From Sulfurospirillum sp. SCADC (GTDB taxonomy: Bacteria > Campylobacterota > Campylobacteria > Campylobacterales > Sulfurospirillaceae), in contig NZ_JQGK01000013.1 in the NCBI RefSeq assembly GCF_000743525.1, positions 1-64,000 of the forward strand: a DNA stretch of 64,000 bases. Direction: 5' to 3'. The first letter of the stretch is position 1. Every line of letters begins with the position of its first letter. The position numbers and the translations under genes were made by a program. The notes beneath the pieces were generated by a model. That model searched no databases, was not told where the DNA came from, and saw only the letters and a program-made list of their open reading frames with translations. Positions 8,709-50,929 of the stretch are shown piece after piece.

Positions 8709-11700
8709 CATCGTTGATTTCACTGGATTTGGGTGGGAAAAATACGGGATTTTTTAGTTTTACAGCTAAAGACGTTTCAATAATAGATACTTTTCAATCA
8801 GGAACGATTATCTATGATGAAAGCTTTGTGCTCTCACAAGTCGCACGACGAGGCAAACGACACGGTAAACGTAACAACCTACGCAACACGCTAGTCAAGC
8901 GACTTTTTTTGCTTCTTTTACAAAAGCATTATGGGCTTAGTCTTGATTTTTTACCCGACGAAATTTTGGGACTTTTTAATAAACGAGGTTACACTTATGC
9001 AAGTTTTGAAATCAAAGAAGATGAAAAAGAAAATCTTGAAAGCGATATTTTAAAAGAGTTTTTGAATGACAAACTCAATTACACTATACAAAATGATGAC
9101 GAAGTAGAAGAGTTTTTAAATCAGATAGCTTCAAATGAAGAGACGTTCAAGAACTATAAAAAGGATTTTGAAAATTTATTTGGAGCTTCGACGCATCAGC
9201 CAAAAAAACAAATTGAACTTATTGATGAGATAAAAAAAGACCTTGAAAAAGAAGATGCCAAAGAACTTTTAGATGGGTTAAAAGTCATAAAAAAAATTAT
9301 AGACGAATTTCACAAACAACAAAACCAAGGCAATCTCCCACGGGCTAAGTATTTTGAAGAACTTTATCTTGAAATAGAATACAATCTAAAAATCCAAAAA
9401 TTCTTTACATGTAACCATCTTCACATCAATGACATGCAATATCTCATCGGCAATCTCTCAAACTATCAGCTCAAAGAGCTAAGACGCTACTTTAACGATG
9501 AAGCTATGGCAAAAGAAGACTTTTGGTCTTGCGAAAAACTGCATCGCATCACATGGCGATTTATCCAAAGTTGGCACCCAAAAAGTCCTGAAGACAAACA
9601 AAGGCAAAAAGAGAATCTTGCAAACCTTAAAACCAAAAGTATTATTGAGTTTTTAACCACCACCAACCCACTGATGACCATTCCGCCGTATGACGATATG
9701 AACAACCGTGGAGCGGTCAAATGCCAAACATTGCGACTCAATGAGGAGTATTTGGATAAGCATCTACCACATTGGAGAGCCATAGCACATACGCTTGCAA
9801 GTGAGACTCAAAAAGAAAATCTTGAGGGTGTGACCGTAAAAGGCTACAGTGAAGATAGCACGCTTTTACACCGCATTTTGGACACCTCTAGCATCATTGA
9901 CCCTTATAGACTTAGAAGTGATGAGATAGATAGTTATTGTGATGTATTGACCAAAGACAATGCTTTTGCATTGAAAAAATTTGCAAAAGAGTACTATCAA
10001 CTTGTCAAAGAAAAAGTACGAACAGGTATTTGGACAAAAGACGATGATATGTTCAAAAAGTGTGACCACAATCCACCACACAAAAACAATCAAATCCACA
10101 ATTTAGTCGCAGGAATCTTAGGCAAACCCATCGCAAAAGAGCGGTTTGAAGCGTTTGAAAATGAACTTTGGAATGTAAAATTTGGCAACAAAAAACTCTC
10201 AAGCTATTGTAAAAACATTGAAGAGTTTAGAAAATCAAACGGCAACCTTTTTAAGCAGATTGTAGAATTGGGTGAAGATAAAGAGGTACAAAAATATCAA
10301 AAAGAGTTAAACGAATGGGTACGAAAAATCGGTGAGTTTTTTAACATCGAAACGCCTTATAGAGCACGCTTTAACAACCTTTTTTCCATGGCGCAACTTC
10401 ATACCATCATCGATACCACACGCAGTGGTTTTAACGCTACATGTAAATGGTGTAGCTGCGAAAATCAATACCGAGCTAGCACAAGAATAGAGATAGATGA
10501 GCAAACAGGGGAAATTACTACCAATGCCAACTGCCAACGGCTCCCAGCCGATACACAAAGACCTTTTAGTGGCAAGATTGAGCGGTACATCGACAAACTA
10601 GGTTACGAGATAGCCAAAGTCAAAGCCAAAGAGTTGGAGGGCATCAAAGAAGATACGATAGATTTAAAAATCATCTTAGAGCAAAACGCTTTTGCGTATG
10701 AAGAGTCTATTCGAAATGCCAAAATCAAAAATGCCAATGCAAAAGCTAAAAAAGCTCTTGAAGAAGCACAAAAAAGAGGGCTTAAAAATATTGAAGACAA
10801 AACCAAAAGAATTAAAGATTTTAGCAACAGCATTTGCCCCTATTGTGGGCAAAGTTTAGGCGAAGATGGCGAGATAGACCATATCTTATCACGAAGTTAC
10901 ACCCTTAAAAAGTATGATACCGTTTTCAACAGCGAAGGCAATCTTTTGTATGTTCACCAAAAATGCAATCAAGCAAAACTTGCAAAAACAGATTATTCTT
11001 TACAAGATTTAAAAATAGATATTTCTCAAAAATGGATAGAAGAACAAATCGCTACTATCAAAACCTACAAAACTTTTTCAGTTCTTACGCAAGAACAACA
11101 AAAAGCTTTTAAATATGCCCTATTTTTAGATAACTCAAATGAAGCTTACCAAAAAGTAATAAGTTGGCTTAGAACCGACCAAAGCTCACGAGTAAACGGT
11201 ACGCAAAAATATTTGGCTAAAAAAATCCAAGAAAAGCTCAAAGCGATGTTTCCAGCTAAAACATTTAACTTTGAGTTTATCTTAGCCGATGCCAATGATG
11301 TGCATGATTTGAGAATTAAAGCGTATCAATTGCCAGAAAAGCCAAAAGACTCTAAACAAGAAACCTACAGTCATACTATAGATGCGGTTATGAGTTTGGT
11401 CAGTGTATGGGATAAGGTATTGCCAAAAACAGAAAAACCTACAAAAGAAGATATTTTAAAATTTGCCAATGTCGAAAATTGGAGTGCCCTCAATAATGAA
11501 TTTTTAACCAAAGGCAAATCAGCAAATCAAAAAATAGAAGAGATGATACAAGCCAATGATTTTGGTCAAAAAAATATGAGGCAAGTTTTTAGTAAGCCCA
11601 TTTTTAAAGATGAATCAATAGGAGAAAGGTATAAGCCATTTGTTCGCTATCACAATCAATTTTACATAGGCTATCCGATAAGCATAAAAGACGGATACGA

Positions 11701-12790
11701 TATGCAGCATTGTCAAGCAATGATTTCAAAGAACGATATTTCAAGGGTAGAGGAGATTCTTAAAGACACCTCTTTATGCACTCTTTTAAAAGAAAAGAAT
11801 GGCATTAAACTTTATTCTATTAACAAGCAAAGTATCAATGAACTGTCAAATCAGTTCTTTAATTTAAACTATCAAAACTTAAACGATGCACAGAAGAAAA
11901 AATCTGAACTGGCAGAATTTGTCATCAATCATTGTAAATATTATGTCAAAAAAACATCGGTTATCAATGCGCCACAATTTATTGATAAAGATTCGATGAA
12001 GCCGTACCCGTTTTATAAAGACTGGCAAAAATTTCACGAAGCTTACAAAAAAGAGCTTGATGCTGAACCAAAAACCAAAAAAGATAACGGGAAATTAGTT
12101 TATGATATATCAGGCATAGATGACTTCTGGACTGAATTTTGCAAAAAATATTTTGGTATAAAAACAAAAGACAATCGAAACAAAGCGAGAAAGGTTTTTT
12201 CTATTGTGGCGCTTACTTCAGCCCCAGGAACAGTCTTTAGAATCAAACGAAAAACGCCTAAAGGACACATATACCAAGCAACGGCGATTGACAATCAACA
12301 AATCAGCGGAGATTATGCAAATGTTCTGTTAGCTGGTAACTCAAAAACACTTGCGTTGGCAGGTCAAAAACCTTCATCTGACTTGAAAAAAGAGTTGAGT
12401 GTCAAAGAGTCAAAAGATATTCGAGATATAAAGCTTGAGCCATCAAGATTTTTCAAAGAGGGGTTTGATTGTCGTGGCATTGAAGTTATTGTCAATAAAA
12501 CAAGTGCGACCATTAAAAATTTCCCACTTACAAAAATTGATAAAAAAATCAAAAAACTTATTTTTAAAACTCTCTTTGAAAAAAAAGATGGTAAACGACA
12601 AAAGCAAAAAACATCAATTTCATTGAAAGAAAAAAATACAATGCAAGAGACACTAAAAAAATTATTAAAAGATAGTATAAAAGTTACTATTAGAGATGGT
12701 AGCATTTCGGGTATTGAAATTAGCAAAAAAACTGTTAATTTTACTTTGCCGTTCAAAAGTGAAAACTTGGCAAAACTCTTAGATGACTAA
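8705..12790 (+). CDS. cas9: Type II-B CRISPR effector nuclease Cas9
   Basis: The 1361-residue protein is an RNA-guided DNA endonuclease. RuvC-I is SLDLGGKNTGF (D8). The arginine-rich bridge helix is ARRGKRHGKRNNLRNTLVKRL at about 46-66. RuvC-II is ILEQNAFAYE (E659). The HNH domain has GEIDHILSRSY (D725-H726) and KCNQAK (N755), with a CPYC/HQKC zinc site. RuvC-III is YSHTIDAVM (H890, D893). All nuclease residues are intact. A second cysteine cluster, CKWCSC, precedes RuvC-II. The frame is open further upstream, but the ATG at 8705 starts right before the conserved RuvC-I strand and overlaps the previous stop. Size and the cas4 partner place it with Francisella/Wolinella-type II-B enzymes. The 3' end overlaps cas1 by 8 bp. 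Confidence 0.97.
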   Translation: MTSLISLDLGGKNTGFFSFTAKDVSIIDTFQSGTIIYDESFVLSQVARRGKRHGKRNNLRNTLVKRLFLLLLQKHYGLSLDFLPDEILGLFNKRGYTYASFEIKEDEKENLESDILKEFLNDKLNYTIQNDDEVEEFLNQIASNEETFKNYKKDFENLFGASTHQPKKQIELIDEIKKDLEKEDAKELLDGLKVIKKIIDEFHKQQNQGNLPRAKYFEELYLEIEYNLKIQKFFTCNHLHINDMQYLIGNLSNYQLKELRRYFNDEAMAKEDFWSCEKLHRITWRFIQSWHPKSPEDKQRQKENLANLKTKSIIEFLTTTNPLMTIPPYDDMNNRGAVKCQTLRLNEEYLDKHLPHWRAIAHTLASETQKENLEGVTVKGYSEDSTLLHRILDTSSIIDPYRLRSDEIDSYCDVLTKDNAFALKKFAKEYYQLVKEKVRTGIWTKDDDMFKKCDHNPPHKNNQIHNLVAGILGKPIAKERFEAFENELWNVKFGNKKLSSYCKNIEEFRKSNGNLFKQIVELGEDKEVQKYQKELNEWVRKIGEFFNIETPYRARFNNLFSMAQLHTIIDTTRSGFNATCKWCSCENQYRASTRIEIDEQTGEITTNANCQRLPADTQRPFSGKIERYIDKLGYEIAKVKAKELEGIKEDTIDLKIILEQNAFAYEESIRNAKIKNANAKAKKALEEAQKRGLKNIEDKTKRIKDFSNSICPYCGQSLGEDGEIDHILSRSYTLKKYDTVFNSEGNLLYVHQKCNQAKLAKTDYSLQDLKIDISQKWIEEQIATIKTYKTFSVLTQEQQKAFKYALFLDNSNEAYQKVISWLRTDQSSRVNGTQKYLAKKIQEKLKAMFPAKTFNFEFILADANDVHDLRIKAYQLPEKPKDSKQETYSHTIDAVMSLVSVWDKVLPKTEKPTKEDILKFANVENWSALNNEFLTKGKSANQKIEEMIQANDFGQKNMRQVFSKPIFKDESIGERYKPFVRYHNQFYIGYPISIKDGYDMQHCQAMISKNDISRVEEILKDTSLCTLLKEKNGIKLYSINKQSINELSNQFFNLNYQNLNDAQKKKSELAEFVINHCKYYVKKTSVINAPQFIDKDSMKPYPFYKDWQKFHEAYKKELDAEPKTKKDNGKLVYDISGIDDFWTEFCKKYFGIKTKDNRNKARKVFSIVALTSAPGTVFRIKRKTPKGHIYQATAIDNQQISGDYANVLLAGNSKTLALAGQKPSSDLKKELSVKESKDIRDIKLEPSRFFKEGFDCRGIEVIVNKTSATIKNFPLTKIDKKIKKLIFKTLFEKKDGKRQKQKTSISLKEKNTMQETLKKLLKDSIKVTIRDGSISGIEISKKTVNFTLPFKSENLAKLLDD

Positions 12791-13781
12791 ACACATCTAC
12801 ATCGACGAATACGGCACATTCTTAGGCAAAACAAGTGCCAGACTTACCATCAGCCAAGGTGGGCAACTCCAAAAAGAGATTGCCCTCAGTCGCATTAAGT
12901 CTATCAACATTTTAAAAGGCGGTATCGCACTCTCAAGCGACCTCATAGAAGCGTGTTCGCTTCGTGGGATTAAGCTCTTTTTTCTTGACTTTAAAAACAT
13001 AGCACATACCTCGCTAAGCTCTACTGCTTCTCACGCCGTGGCAAATGTACGACGTGCGCAGTTTTTGACGATAGAGAGTGATGAAGCAAAAGAGATAGCA
13101 CGAGCTTTGATACTGGGCAAACTCAAAAACCAACGCACAACACTTCAATACTTTCACAAATACCTCAAAACCACCGACAAAGAGAGCATAAAATTAGCAA
13201 ACGCTATCGAAAAAATCAAACAAACAAGCCAAAGCCTCAAAACCATTGAGCTGAAAAATCGCCCTGATTGGCTTAGTATCATCATGGGAAAAGAAGGAGC
13301 GGTGGCGAGTATTTATTTTGATGCGGTGGGTTCGGAGTTACTTTATGATTTGGATTTTTCTCATCGCATCGGAAGAGGAGCAGACGACATCGTCAATTCT
13401 GCGCTTAATTACGGCTATGCCATTTTGACCTCTTTTGTCTGGCAAAGCGTCATCAACGCAGGACTTGAACCCTTTGCAGGCGTCTTACATGTAAACAGAC
13501 CAGGTAAACCCTCCCTTGTGCTTGACATCATCGAAGAGTACCGTGCGTGGGTGGTCGATAGAAACATCATCAAACTCAAATCCCACCTCAAAGGCAAAAG
13601 CTTTCTTGATAGCACCATCAAGAAAAAAATCATCGAAGAGATAAACGCCACCATGAATAAAAAATACCTCTACAACGCCAAAAATCTTTCGCTTCAAAGC
13701 ATCATGCAACGCCAAGTTTACAGGTTAACAGGAGCATTTATGCAACAAATGCCTTATAAAAGCTATAGCTTTAAGTGGTAA
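12783..13781 (+). CDS. cas1: CRISPR integrase Cas1
   Basis: The 332-residue protein is the catalytic subunit of the Cas1-Cas2 spacer integrase. The N-terminal beta domain (HIYIDEYGTFLGK) is followed by the helical domain. The metal ligands are E171 (GKEGAVASIYF), H236 (LHVNRPGKPSL) and the D248/E251 region (LDIIEEYRAWVVDR), all intact. It overlaps cas9 by 8 bp and is followed 3 bp later by cas2, so the genes form one operon. It contains a TTACATGTAA palindrome at 13485-13494, read as LHV. Presence of an intact integrase agrees with the recent, ordered growth visible in the array. Confidence 0.96.
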   Translation: MTKHIYIDEYGTFLGKTSARLTISQGGQLQKEIALSRIKSINILKGGIALSSDLIEACSLRGIKLFFLDFKNIAHTSLSSTASHAVANVRRAQFLTIESDEAKEIARALILGKLKNQRTTLQYFHKYLKTTDKESIKLANAIEKIKQTSQSLKTIELKNRPDWLSIIMGKEGAVASIYFDAVGSELLYDLDFSHRIGRGADDIVNSALNYGYAILTSFVWQSVINAGLEPFAGVLHVNRPGKPSLVLDIIEEYRAWVVDRNIIKLKSHLKGKSFLDSTIKKKIIEEINATMNKKYLYNAKNLSLQSIMQRQVYRLTGAFMQQMPYKSYSFKW

Positions 13782-13784
13782 AAC

Positions 13785-14075
13785 ATGGCACTGTATTACG
13801 AGGTACTGGTGACGTATGACATCGAGGAAAACAAAAACCGCAAAAAACTTTTTGATGAGCTCAAAGATTTGGGCTTAGTTGCCATTCAAAAGTCAGTATT
13901 TTGGGGACATCTCAAACACGCCGAGCTTAAAATGCTTCCGCACTTTTTTAAAAAGTATTGTGCCGATGGGGATAAAGCATTTTTTGTCAAAGCCAAACTC
14001 TCAAATGAAATCTTAGAAAATAGCTTTGGTTATGACAAAAACGACTTTGAGGAAAAATCCTTTGAATACCTATAA
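13785..14075 (+). CDS. cas2: CRISPR adaptation protein Cas2
   Basis: The 96-residue protein has the ferredoxin-like Cas2 fold signature: VLVTYDIEENKNRKKLFDEL at residues 7-26, with the conserved Asp after the first strand, and KSVFWGHL after the second helix. It acts as the dimeric core between Cas1 dimers during spacer integration. It starts 3 bp after cas1, and its end overlaps the cas4 coding frame by about 44 bp, a tight operon. The length is normal for the family. Confidence 0.94.
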   Translation: MALYYEVLVTYDIEENKNRKKLFDELKDLGLVAIQKSVFWGHLKHAELKMLPHFFKKYCADGDKAFFVKAKLSNEILENSFGYDKNDFEEKSFEYL

Positions 14076-14643
14076 ACTCCCCATCCACCTCATCAGACAA
14101 TACCTCTTTTGCCCTAGAGTTGTGTACTTTTTAGAAGTGCTTTGTATTCCAAAAACAAGCCCCTCGTGGGTCAAAGAGGGTGAAGTTCACCATAAAAAAC
14201 AAGCCGAACTTTTTAAACGACGCACCCTTGCACGTTTTCAGCTTGAAGAAGCACTTTTTAAAAGCAATGTCACACTCTCTCATGACGCCTGTAACTTTTA
14301 CGGCATTTGCGATGGACTTCTCATCTCTTCCACACACATCTATCCCGTTGAGATAAAACTGCACGGCTCAAAACCAACCACTGCACAAAAAATGCAACTC
14401 ATCGCTTATGGCATTTTGGCGGAGAAAATATACAAAAAAAGATTTGAACTAGGCTTTATACTTTATGAAGAAAAAGGTAAAACCATCCCTTTACATGTAA
14501 ACGAAGAGGAGAAGAAAATACTTACATGTAAAGTCGAAGAGATACGCCATCTGATAGAACAAGGCAAACTTCCTTACAGTAACGCAGATGATGGAAAATG
14601 CACACAATGTGAGTTTGAAAATTATTGTAATGATAGGTTTTAA
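14032..14643 (+). CDS. cas4: Cas4 adaptation nuclease
   Basis: The protein is 203 residues from the ATG at 14032; a TTG six bases earlier is possible. It has the Cas4 RecB-like nuclease layout: first cluster cysteine in FCPR (C27), HHKKQAE, the nuclease Asp and Glu-Lys in CDGLLI...YPVEIK, QMQLIAYGILAEK-like QhXXY motif (QLIAYG), and the C-terminal cysteines CTQCEFENYC that complete a 4Fe-4S cluster. Cas4 trims prespacers and helps set PAM and orientation. Its presence with cas9-cas1-cas2 defines subtype II-B. Two TTACATGTAA palindromes lie in its 3' half (14491-14500 and 14522-14531). The tracrRNA terminator follows immediately on the other strand. Confidence 0.92.
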   Translation: MTKTTLRKNPLNTYKLPIHLIRQYLFCPRVVYFLEVLCIPKTSPSWVKEGEVHHKKQAELFKRRTLARFQLEEALFKSNVTLSHDACNFYGICDGLLISSTHIYPVEIKLHGSKPTTAQKMQLIAYGILAEKIYKKRFELGFILYEEKGKTIPLHVNEEEKKILTCKVEEIRHLIEQGKLPYSNADDGKCTQCEFENYCNDRF

Positions 14644-14644
14644 G

Positions 14645-14679
14645 AAAGAAGCCCGCCATGCCTAAGGCAGTTGGGCGGG
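14645..14679 (-). terminator. Terminator hairpin of tracrRNA
   Basis: On the minus strand CCCGCC (14679-14674) pairs with GGCGGG (14657-14652), and an inner TGCC/GGCA stem is capped by a TTA loop. A CTTCTTTCTT run follows. It is an intrinsic terminator with an imperfect U-tract and also forms the 3' hairpin of the tracrRNA. On the plus strand it could terminate the cas operon less efficiently. Confidence 0.72.
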
Positions 14680-14737
14680 TCTATATATCTTTTCGATGAT
14701 TTCAGTGCATCGAACGATACGTGTTGTAAAGTGTCGT
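14645..14737 (-). ncRNA. tracrRNA of the type II-B system
   Basis: On the minus strand, the bases from 14737 to about 14699 form an anti-repeat. They match the first 17 bases of the array repeat exactly (ACGACACTTTACAACAC, 14737-14721) and then match less regularly through CACTGAAA (14707-14700). The tail (about 14698-14681) is followed by a GC-rich hairpin and a T-rich run. An extended -10 (TGCTATACT) places the transcription start at about 14738. Because the tracrRNA carries the plus-sense repeat, the crRNAs must be made from the minus strand of the array. The predicted length is about 93 nt. The 3' end converges on cas4 and stops two bases after its stop codon. The ends are predicted, not measured. 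Confidence 0.87.
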
Positions 14738-14773
14738 GAGTGAAAGTATAGCATTTTTCTCAAAATATCGCAC
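14738..14773 (-). promoter_or_regulatory. Extended -10 promoter for tracrRNA
   Basis: On the minus strand TGCTATACT (14753-14745) is an extended -10 element with TATACT as the hexamer. Seven bases downstream is the first base of the anti-repeat. The -35 region 17 bp upstream is weak, as is common for extended -10 promoters. The strength is not known. Confidence 0.65.
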
Positions 14774-14856
14774 TTTTTTTGCAAGGAAATAATTTGCGAA
14801 AAAAAGAGACAATTTCGATACAAGAAAGCCCCATCAAGTCGATGATTTGTAAGGCT
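14741..14856. other. Leader-like segment at the cas-proximal end of the array
   Basis: This AT-rich stretch of about 116 bp lies between the tracrRNA start and the first repeat and carries no gene. It is the probable integration leader: the adjoining repeats are the newer block (shared base change) and the far end of the array is degenerate. It also holds the tracrRNA promoter, so adaptation and tracrRNA transcription share this segment. The assignment is inferred from repeat variation. Confidence 0.6.
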
Positions 14857-16719
14857 ACGACACTTTACAACACCATCGCTTAGCAACTGGAACATGCAAT
14901 GGGTAGATGTAACACCTGAAGAGGCTATCACGACACTTTACAACACCATCGCTTAGCAACTGGAACGCAATTCTAAACTTAGAGTCAACGTGGAAATTGA
15001 ACGACACTTTACAACACCATCGCTTAGCAACTGGAACTTATTTGTAGAGGGAAAAGTGCCTCAAAAAACGCTTACGACACTTTACAACACCATCGCTTAG
15101 CAACTGGAACTGATTTAAAAGAGCGCATGAACAGTAGTGACAAAAATGCACGACACTTTACAACACCATCGCTTAGCAACTGGAACACATTAACGGTAAA
15201 CCTAAACACAGGAACATACTTTACGACACTTTACAACACCATCGCTTAGCAACTGGAACCTAATCTCTGTAAACATATTTGCATACCGAAAGATACGACA
15301 CTTTACAACACCATCGCTTAGCAACTGGAACTGTCTCATAAACATTAATAGGTTCTTCCTCTTTTTTGACGACACTTTACAACACCATCGCTTAGCAACT
15401 GGAACTAAAAACTCTTTGACGAGTAAAGGAACTCCAAATATCACGACACTTTACAACACCATCGCTTAGCAACTGGAACAAATTGAACCATTTTAGCTTT
15501 AAGCCAGTTTGCAGACAACGACACTTTACAACACCATCGCTTAGCAACTGGAACTTCTTAGATAGCCTTATTATTATTGATGAGTGTCAACGACACTTTA
15601 CAACACCATCGCTTAGCAACTGGAACGCAACTGTTAGTTATGTCGATTCAAGCGGGCATGACGACACTTTACAACACCATCGCTTAGCAACTGGAACGTT
15701 GGTACCGTCAAAATATTTGTATATTGCGTTTTCATACGACACTTTACAACACCATCGCTTAGCAACTGGAACGATGATGCTAAAAAGCTGAACGAAAAAC
15801 AGTTTAAGCACGACACTTTACAACACCATCGCTTAGCAACTGAAACGCAACATATGATACTTGTCGTGCTGCTGATTTTTCTGAACGACACTTTACAACA
15901 CCATCGCTTAGCAACTGAAACTAACATGGGATAAAGACCTGACATTTAACTTTAACACGACACTTTACAACACCATCGCTTAGCAACTGAAACCTATCGC
16001 TGGACGCAGGAATGGGAAAGGCTGAGAGTGACGACACTTTACAACACCATCGCTTAGCAACTGAAACTGGTCTTGGCTTATTTTTAGGTCTTTGGTAATT
16101 ACTACGACACTTTACAACACCATCGCTTAGCAACTGAAACTTTAACATTTTTTTGCGCCACAATGCCGATATTGAGACGACACTTTACAACACCATCGCT
16201 TAGCAACTGAAACCACATCGTCCTGCCACAGTCGTAGAAGAGGGTTTGAACGACACTTTACAACACCATCGCTTAGCAACTGAAACCCTAAAGGGTCGCA
16301 CGTTTCAGGTTCAGTAGGACGACACTTTACAACACCATCGCTTAGCAACTGAAACGTATCAGAGCGAATATAAAAAAACGTACCGTTTGAGACGACACTT
16401 TACAACACCATCGCTTAGCAACTGAAACTGACAAGATTCACGACAAATACCTCGGTATTGATTTTACGACACTTTACAACACCATCGCTTAGCAACTGAA
16501 ACAGTAGATCATTCGTAGTATTCAGATCATCATGCAGTACGACACTTTACAACACCATCGCTTAGCAACTGAAACAAGAAGTAGGCGATCTTTGGACTAA
16601 TTCAGTAACAACGACACTTTACAACACCATCGCTTAGCAACTGAAACTCATAATTGACACAGGTGGACGAGATAGTGAAGAAACGACACTTTACAACACC
16701 ATCGCTTAGCAACTGAAGC
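14857..16719 (-). CRISPR. CRISPR array, 26 repeats of 37 bp and 25 spacers
   Basis: Repeats begin ACGACACTTTACAACACC and end GCAACTGGAAC or GCAACTGAAAC. They start at 14857, 14930, 15001, 15074, 15150, 15223, 15295, 15369, 15443, 15518, 15590, 15661, 15736, 15810, 15885, 15957, 16031, 16104, 16177, 16250, 16319, 16392, 16466, 16539, 16611 and 16683. Spacers are 32-39 bp. Repeats 1-13 have G at position 34; repeats 14-26 have A. Repeat 26 has an extra change near its end (GAAGC). The tracrRNA anti-repeat shows that crRNAs are read from the minus strand, so each crRNA is a spacer followed by GUUUCAG... or GUUCCAG.... I saw no repeated spacers by eye. No clear array promoter is visible at the 16720 end. 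Confidence 0.98.
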
Positions 16720-16757: not shown

Positions 16758-17021
16758 TTAGTCATAATGCGTCCACATCCTTAGAACTCTAATGATTTTT
16801 TCTTCTTCCAATACTTCGTAAACGAGTCTGTGTTGTTTATTTATTCTTCGTGATATTTTACCTGTTAGATTGTGTGATAGATATTCAAATGCTGGAGGAT
16901 ATTGAAGAGGGTCTTTTTCTATGAGGTGTAAAAGTTCCATAATCTTTGGTTTCAAGCCACTTGATTGATGCTTCTTAGCATCTTTTTTGGCTTGAGGAGA
17001 GAAAAGCAGTTGGTACATCAT
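16758..17021 (-). CDS. YoeB/Txe-family (RelE superfamily) mRNA interferase toxin
   Basis: The 87-residue protein reads MMYQLLFSPQAKKDAKKHQS, then a middle with PLQYPPAFEYLSHNLTGKIS, and ends RRINKQHRLVYEVLEEEKIIRVLRMWTHYD. The RRI--QHRLVYEV and the C-terminal W-HY are typical of YoeB/Txe ribosome-dependent endoribonucleases; the conserved catalytic Glu, Arg and terminal His-Tyr are present. Its start overlaps the antitoxin stop by one base (TAATG). It lies directly beside the distal end of the CRISPR array and points away from it on the minus strand. It probably cleaves mRNA in the ribosomal A site when the antitoxin is lost. Confidence 0.85.
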   Translation of the reverse strand: MMYQLLFSPQAKKDAKKHQSSGLKPKIMELLHLIEKDPLQYPPAFEYLSHNLTGKISRRINKQHRLVYEVLEEEKIIRVLRMWTHYD

Positions 17022-49741: not shown

Positions 49742-50929
49742 ATGTCCCACACACTCACCGAGCGTCAGGTTGTCTTAACGCTTGCAAGCCTTTCCGCGAT
49801 CACACCTTTAGCCATTGATATGTATTTACCTGCATTCCCATCCATCGCAGCCGATCTGCATACGACCATTCCTAACGTCGAAATCAGCCTAAGCCTCTTC
49901 TTTTTTGGCATGGCAATGGGGCAACTCTTCGGCGGTCCCATCTCGGATGCGTATGGCAGACGCCCAATGATTGTCATTGGATTGGTGGTCTTTGCACTCA
50001 GCAGTTTTTTACTCACACTCACCGATGACATTACCCTGTTTTGGATCCTTAGAGGAATCCAATCGTTTGGTGGCGGCATCGCAACGGTCAATGTCTCTGC
50101 CATTGTGCGCGACATGTTTGATGGCAAAGAGAGTGCGCGCATCTTCTCACTCATCGCCATGGTGATGCTTATGGCACCTCTTCTTGCCCCAACCTTAGGC
50201 TCCTTAGTCCTCAAATTTTTCAAGTGGGAAGTCATTTTTATGAGTCTCTTTCTCTACACTTTTTTTGTACTGGGTTTTTATCTCATTCGCTTTCCGAAAG
50301 TGGAGCAAAAACGCTCCAAAATTACGCCCATTCAAAACTATAAAACCGTTCTTACCCACAAACAAGCGATGATTTTTATCGTCTCGCAAATTTTATGCAC
50401 CTCTGGAATGTACACCTACATTACCTCTTCTTCGTTTATTTACATGGAGCATTTTCATTTGAGTGCCAGTCAATTTTCGCTCTTTTTTGGTGCAAGTGTC
50501 TTGATGATGATGGTGTGCGGACGTCTTAATGCGTGGATCGTTAAGAAAAAAGATCCTCTTATGCTGCTTCGTTTTGGTATTAATGCTCAAGCCATCGTAG
50601 GAATTCTTCTGTTTGCGTCCCAAGAGAGTACGTCGGTGTATCCCATCTTTTTATTGATTGGACTTTACATCGGTCTGTTGGGATTTATTTTTTCCAATGC
50701 GGTTTCACTCATACTGGAATTTTTTCCAACGATAAGCGCCTCTGCCAATGCTATCATTGGGGTTTTGCAGTACAGTGTGGGCGCATTTATGGGCTTTATA
50801 GCAAGCTTCTTGCATGATGGAACCCTCTTTCCCATAACCGGAGTGATGATGGTGGTAAGCCTTTTAGGAACAACACTTTTGATGTTAGGAAGTAGGGGCT
50901 ATATTCCGCATCATGGTGGACAAAGCTAA
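49742..50929 (+). CDS. Bcr/CflA-type MFS drug:proton antiporter
   Basis: The 395-residue membrane protein has about 12 helices. It shows MYLPAFPSIAADL after helix 1 and GPISDAYGRRPMIVIG, the DxxGRRP loop between helices 2 and 3, as in Bcr/CflA exporters. It probably exports a toxic compound or a metabolite. It is divergent from the fumarase operon, and its end overlaps the convergent mutY gene by 45 bp. Confidence 0.88.
   Translation: MSHTLTERQVVLTLASLSAITPLAIDMYLPAFPSIAADLHTTIPNVEISLSLFFFGMAMGQLFGGPISDAYGRRPMIVIGLVVFALSSFLLTLTDDITLFWILRGIQSFGGGIATVNVSAIVRDMFDGKESARIFSLIAMVMLMAPLLAPTLGSLVLKFFKWEVIFMSLFLYTFFVLGFYLIRFPKVEQKRSKITPIQNYKTVLTHKQAMIFIVSQILCTSGMYTYITSSSFIYMEHFHLSASQFSLFFGASVLMMMVCGRLNAWIVKKKDPLMLLRFGINAQAIVGILLFASQESTSVYPIFLLIGLYIGLLGFIFSNAVSLILEFFPTISASANAIIGVLQYSVGAFMGFIASFLHDGTLFPITGVMMVVSLLGTTLLMLGSRGYIPHHGGQS

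Follow-up and report, generated by a model that had tools for sequence, protein, structure and literature searches.

Sequence evidence for growth of a type II-B CRISPR array of Campylobacterota at the guide 3' end and for a probable promoter in each repeat

The closest described relatives of the locus presented here are CRISPR-Cas systems of types II-C and II-B. Type II-C arrays gain their spacers at the last repeat, which is the 3' one, and have a promoter in every repeat (PMC12080349, PMC8092290, PMC12638026). With such promoters crRNAs build up at the growing end (PMC13187072), and the first repeat is mutated in 60% of II-C arrays, mostly in its first 15 nt (PMC12080349). The II-B array of Francisella novicida is transcribed against the cas operon, a direction obtained by RNA sequencing (PMC3936727), and the PAM of this system is NGG (PMC6360697). 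Transcription against the cas genes in F. novicida and 3' growth with repeat promoters in II-C are known already. For type II-B, a guide-production study of April 2026 named the acquisition site and the mode of transcription as points still to be settled (PMC13187072), and a 2019 study assumed that the direction of the array follows the cas genes (PMC6737040). Our literature search found no paper on the II-B growing end, a mention in Chylinski 2013, in the 2025 repeat-mutation study or in the 2025 leader-motif study being possible.

The window analysed here, which is the whole stretch of 64,000 nucleotides from Sulfurospirillum sp. SCADC, contains cas9, cas1, cas2 and cas4 in one operon (Table 1). 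Within type II systems cas4 is the marker gene of II-B, and the locus, with its Csx12-type Cas9, is a type II-B CRISPR-Cas locus. Type II-C is marked by a II-C Cas9 and the lack of cas4, but here cas4 is present and Cas9 is Csx12. The gene order is the same as that of F. novicida, for which neither a growing end nor repeat promoters were described. The tracrRNA gene sits between cas4 and the array; its antirepeat is the sole antirepeat found in the genome, and comparison of the tracrRNA region with Rfam gave no match. When the genomes of the genus were searched with the Cas9 protein and the Cas9 family model, a match was obtained in this genome only.

Table 1. Coordinates of the features of the type II-B locus within the window.
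Feature	Position	Strand	Evidence or remark
cas9, type II-B (Csx12), 1361 aa	8705-12787	+	TIGR03031 753.7 bits (cut-off 399.4); PADLOC Cas9b
cas1	12783-13781	+	TIGR00287; PADLOC Cas1_II
cas2	13785-14075	+	TIGR01573; PADLOC Cas2_II
cas4, start codon uncertain, homology from ~14071	14026-14643	+	TIGR00372; PADLOC Cas4_II; PF01930
tracrRNA gene, ends inferred from -10 box and terminator	14643-14738	minus	sequence, fold z -2.78, terminator scan, position conserved in relatives
tracrRNA terminator hairpin	about 14653-14682	minus	
tracrRNA antirepeat	14698-14737	minus	
tracrRNA -10 box, TGC-TATACT	14745-14750	minus	
Leader (putative acquisition side)	14739-14856	.	conserved across families, other flank not
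CRISPR array	14857-16719	minus (guide strand)	26 repeats of 37 nt, 25 spacers; NGG 3' of protospacers
Putative younger half, 13 repeats, derived allele (GTTCC on guide strand)	14857-15772	minus	
First copy of the -10-like box (TGTAAA, extended TG), offset identical in each of the 26 repeats	14864-14869	minus	ends 7 nt before repeat end, guide strand
Spacer at sole allele boundary	15773-15809	minus	
Putative older half, 13 repeats, ancestral allele (guide position 4 is T: GTTTC)	15810-16719	minus	
Putative oldest repeat, guide-5' terminal ('extra'), one substitution at guide position 2	16683-16719	minus	

The locus was compared within a set of 18 type II-B arrays from 16 genomes of six families, all belonging to one phylum (Campylobacterota), with one genome per species and 312 spacers of normal length. 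The 18 arrays are related by descent, and counts drawn from them are not fully independent. All complete loci of the set carry cas9, cas1, cas2 and cas4. Beyond Campylobacterota, no Cas9 match was found in plasmids and no relatives of Cas1 or Cas9 were found in viral contigs. No spacers common to different genomes were found in this set of one genome per species, sharing being seen within a genome only. A fragment of a Cas9 gene was observed at L035 (G083, ~8961-9317) as an open frame of 166 aa, ~70% identical to the window Cas9; its surroundings gave no match to cas1, cas2 or cas4.

Alignment of the window repeats revealed that all are invariant apart from position 34 and a single base of the last repeat. 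Repeats 1-13 (starts 14857 to 15736) carry G34 (...CTGGAAC) and repeats 14-26 (starts 15810 to 16683), the last excepted, read ...CTGAAAC with A34, so that the allele switches once across the array, over a single spacer. The sequence-only reading of this stretch had described exactly this arrangement, and the chance of one boundary with 13 + 13 alleles is 2/C(26,13) = 1.9e-7. It had also called the last repeat degenerate; that repeat does differ from its neighbour, but the term is too strong for a single changed base (AAAC to AAGC, at position 2 of the guide strand). No further copy of the repeat core GTTGTAAAGTGTC was found in the genome beyond this array. A single boundary might also be produced by block duplication, by recombination of two arrays or by gene conversion, and would then tell nothing of polarity. 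Related arrays do contain spacer duplications (L029, L033, L052, L053, L054), and the repeat alleles of L052b and L053a are imperfectly ordered, alternating along the array. We nevertheless consider such an origin quite improbable for the window, where no 16-mer is common to any two of the 25 spacers, and the one-sided leader and the one-sided terminal decay described below are independent of the boundary.

As a single allele boundary is symmetrical, outgroups are needed to give it a direction. Taken by itself it permits the canonical polarity, in which the array would grow at 16719 beside an upstream leader and A34 would be the younger allele; growth at the promoter end is assumed by published tools, and the 2019 study orients II-B arrays with the cas genes. 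The outgroups point the other way. All 17 other II-B arrays are of the A34 type (GTTTC start on the guide strand) and the antirepeat of the window tracrRNA pairs with GTTTC, that is, with the A34 form; G34 is on both grounds the derived allele, and the half at 14857 the younger one. Growth at 16719 is also contradicted by the flank beyond that end, which is unconserved, and by the would-be template repeat at 16683, which has a substitution absent from every other copy, and we regard it as extremely improbable. The earlier derivation of polarity from the boundary had thus identified the right growing end on insufficient grounds, the direction being supplied by the ancestry of A34. Arrays L052a and L053a, from two species of one genus, have a common allele order from the far end (G11 G19 then G11) and differ in their leader-side alleles, a further sign in favour of growth on the leader side.

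The terminal repeats were compared at both ends of the arrays. The guide-5' terminal repeat was altered in nine of the 14 evaluable arrays and the leader-side repeat in none of 18 (Fisher P 7e-5). L027 is a possible tenth case, as a decayed repeat copy lies in register beyond its last full repeat; the last full repeats of L027, L028, L054 and L057 are without substitution. Nearly all terminal-repeat changes (34/38) fall within positions 1-15. In 3' growth and in first-repeat mutation the locus appears to be alike with the II-C systems of Campylobacter jejuni, Neisseria meningitidis and Flavobacterium columnare, a likeness drawn here by sequence inference, while it differs from them in its Csx12 Cas9, its Cas4, its 37-nt repeats and the position of the tracrRNA between leader and cas genes.

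Conservation of the flanks is one-sided as well. Between families, z exceeded 3 for the guide-3' flank in 65 of 90 pairs, versus 0 of 90 for the guide-5' flank. The outer part of the leader is the tracrRNA promoter, and the array-proximal part, which begins with AGC on the guide strand, is conserved; leader conservation is therefore partly conservation of the tracrRNA promoter, although the 70 nt adjoining the array, beyond this promoter, still gave z>3 in 44 of 90 pairs. Where two arrays occur in one genome, their 3' flanks are near-identical (144-146 of 150 bases). The arrays L054, L052a, L036 and L053b have the direction of the cas genes and all others the opposite one. In every array, however, the conserved leader adjoins the guide 3' end, and where a tracrRNA antirepeat was detected it lies further out than the leader. 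Since both orientations occur while the leader keeps its place, the direction of the cas genes does not tell reliably how an array is oriented. The sequence-only reading held that new spacers enter at 14857, and the polarised alleles, the conserved leader flank and the decay of terminal repeats bear this out; entry of new repeats at the 14857 end is supported by sequence comparison from each of these sides.

Several further features of the flanks were observed. In the first 45 nt past the last repeat (guide strand) of the 18 leaders, AGC is frequent at the junction, and the same zone contains a stem-loop of varying sequence, below z -1.5 in 10 of the 18 arrays. The mean z of the leader hairpin is -1.7, versus -0.8 for the other flank; the stem-loop is possibly a terminator or an integration signal, which we mention as a lead only. 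In many relatives, e.g. L032, L033, L036 and L052-L055, the zone that precedes the tracrRNA promoter is spanned by an inverted repeat, TTTTTCCAC...GTGGAAAAA. In L052, L053 and L036 one array lies on the cas9 side, with a leader copy and an antirepeat; in L052 and L053 the antirepeat of this array matches less of the repeat, and in L036 a lone repeat (5592) remains on the cas4 side with its own antirepeat.

The guide strand was determined from protospacers. The non-self protospacers, found in genomes of the respective same genus, are those of window spacers 5, 17 and 23 and of L052 spacers. NGG lies directly 3' (guide strand) in 12 of the 13 (P about 2e-16), and the mirror motif upstream was found in 0; the window array alone contributes 3/3, a small number. 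The PAM of type II systems lies 3' of the protospacer (PMC3936727, PMC8482600), which assigns the window guides to the minus strand, with reading from 16719 towards 14857. The same direction had earlier been deduced by tracrRNA logic, and the PAM side now gives it support that is independent of the tracrRNA. Self matches of window spacers 7 and 8 and of three L052 spacers are without NGG, as expected if such matches are tolerated. The two neighbouring window spacers 16214-16249 and 16141-16176 match their own chromosome with 36/36 identity, both without NGG. For the former the site is the 3' end of a gene for a histidine kinase (G000:C15, about 50794-50829), for the latter a menaquinone biosynthesis gene (G000:C8, about 13184-13219). 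Comparison of the spacers with a phage collection gave weak matches only for the window array and none for L028, and four of the newest spacers, searched as exact 24-mers, had no match in viral contigs.

Inspection of the guide strand revealed a -10-like box in every repeat of the 18 arrays, in most cases 7 nt ahead of the spacer. Ten arrays have a perfect TATAAT at positions 25-30, with the same 7-nt offset. The other boxes are TATAAA in L027, TGTAAA in the window and the weaker GGTAAA or TAAAGT in L028, each of the three accompanied by an extended TG, and TGnTAGAAT, situated 5 nt earlier, in the genus of L052-L054. The best -10 score on the guide strand has a mean of 6.1, compared with 4.6 for shuffled sequences (sd 0.16), and scores on the opposite strand do not exceed 5. 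The window box is weak (4/6), helped by its TG.

Growth at 14857 is also compatible with one long precursor transcribed from a promoter beyond 16719, the boxes then being by-products of pairing with the tracrRNA. A YoeB-type toxin gene (16758-17021, minus) points at the array from ~40 nt, and read-through from it may contribute to transcription. Complementarity to the tracrRNA includes the -10 half of the repeat, which is a second possible reason for the conservation of this half, and a two-hexamer promoter scan of the repeats found no promoter. A long precursor is nonetheless unlikely, given that the 5' flanks of relatives are unrelated and therefore hold no conserved upstream promoter. Moreover, the box is kept on one strand and in one genus is displaced as a whole by 5 nt, the TG extension is present where the hexamer is weak, and the strongly decayed terminal repeats of L034, L036 and L053b have lost the tracrRNA-pairing half and kept exactly the box half. 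Most likely, judging from these boxes, each repeat carries its own promoter. The sequence-only reading had expected the newest spacers to be transcribed last; with a promoter in each repeat they would be expressed at once, neither last nor at the lowest level, and that expectation is probably wrong.

We consider it very probable that the II-B array gains its repeats on the side where guide transcription finishes, beside the tracrRNA and cas genes, each repeat most likely holding a promoter. The polarity of growth, the guide strand, the conserved leader and the -10-like boxes can be read from the sequences themselves; the activity of the promoters, the chemistry of insertion and the role of Cas4 are what we infer from them. 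Most likely, Cas1-Cas2, with Cas4, would recognise the leader, a new spacer would be inserted with its PAM end towards the leader, and the leader-side repeat would be copied. The A34 to G34 substitution would have arisen in a leader-side repeat and been inherited by all later insertions, which would now form the younger half. The guides, encoded on the minus strand, would be read towards the leader, and the repeat promoter, with its -10 box ~7 nt before the spacer, would express the leader-adjacent spacer without a leader promoter. The oldest repeat would serve no guide and could drift in its tracrRNA-pairing half.

The derived allele is predicted to form an A.C mismatch with the tracrRNA at the fourth repeat base in all 13 youngest repeats, the predicted energy of the repeat:tracrRNA duplex being -44.4 kcal/mol for A34 versus -40.7 for G34. 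No second tracrRNA fitting the G34 allele was found in the genome. The mismatch appears to have been passed through all later insertions, which leaves two readings, tolerance of the mismatch or a weakening of the newest guides.

The proposed arrangement resembles type II-A in its Cas9 with tracrRNA, its 3' PAM and its guide-then-repeat crRNA, but II-A has its leader and promoter on the guide 5' side, so that the PAM end points away from the leader, whereas in the window it points towards it. In type I systems, as in II-C, the PAM end of the inserted spacer faces the leader. Hoikkala and colleagues described the same PAM-to-leader geometry for II-C (PMC8092290). If the PAM end of inserted spacers faces the leader and Cas9 needs a 3' PAM, working guides would be obtained only when the array is read towards the leader. 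Tentatively, and with somewhat less than even confidence, we suggest that PAM-to-leader insertion together with the 3' PAM of Cas9 forced the promoter into the repeat, integration geometry dictating transcription polarity and II-A being the exception; the PAM side and leader side are directly apparent in the arrays, and the causal step is one that we infer.

The same anatomy in 18 arrays suggests a rule for type II-B in Campylobacterota, a simple and testable one that ties the PAM side to array polarity. The finding suggests an answer to two questions on type II-B systems, the site at which new memories are added and the way in which they are read. If the rule holds, predictions of II-B spacer chronology, of the targeting strand and of accessory RNAs should take the opposite end of the array as the recent one.
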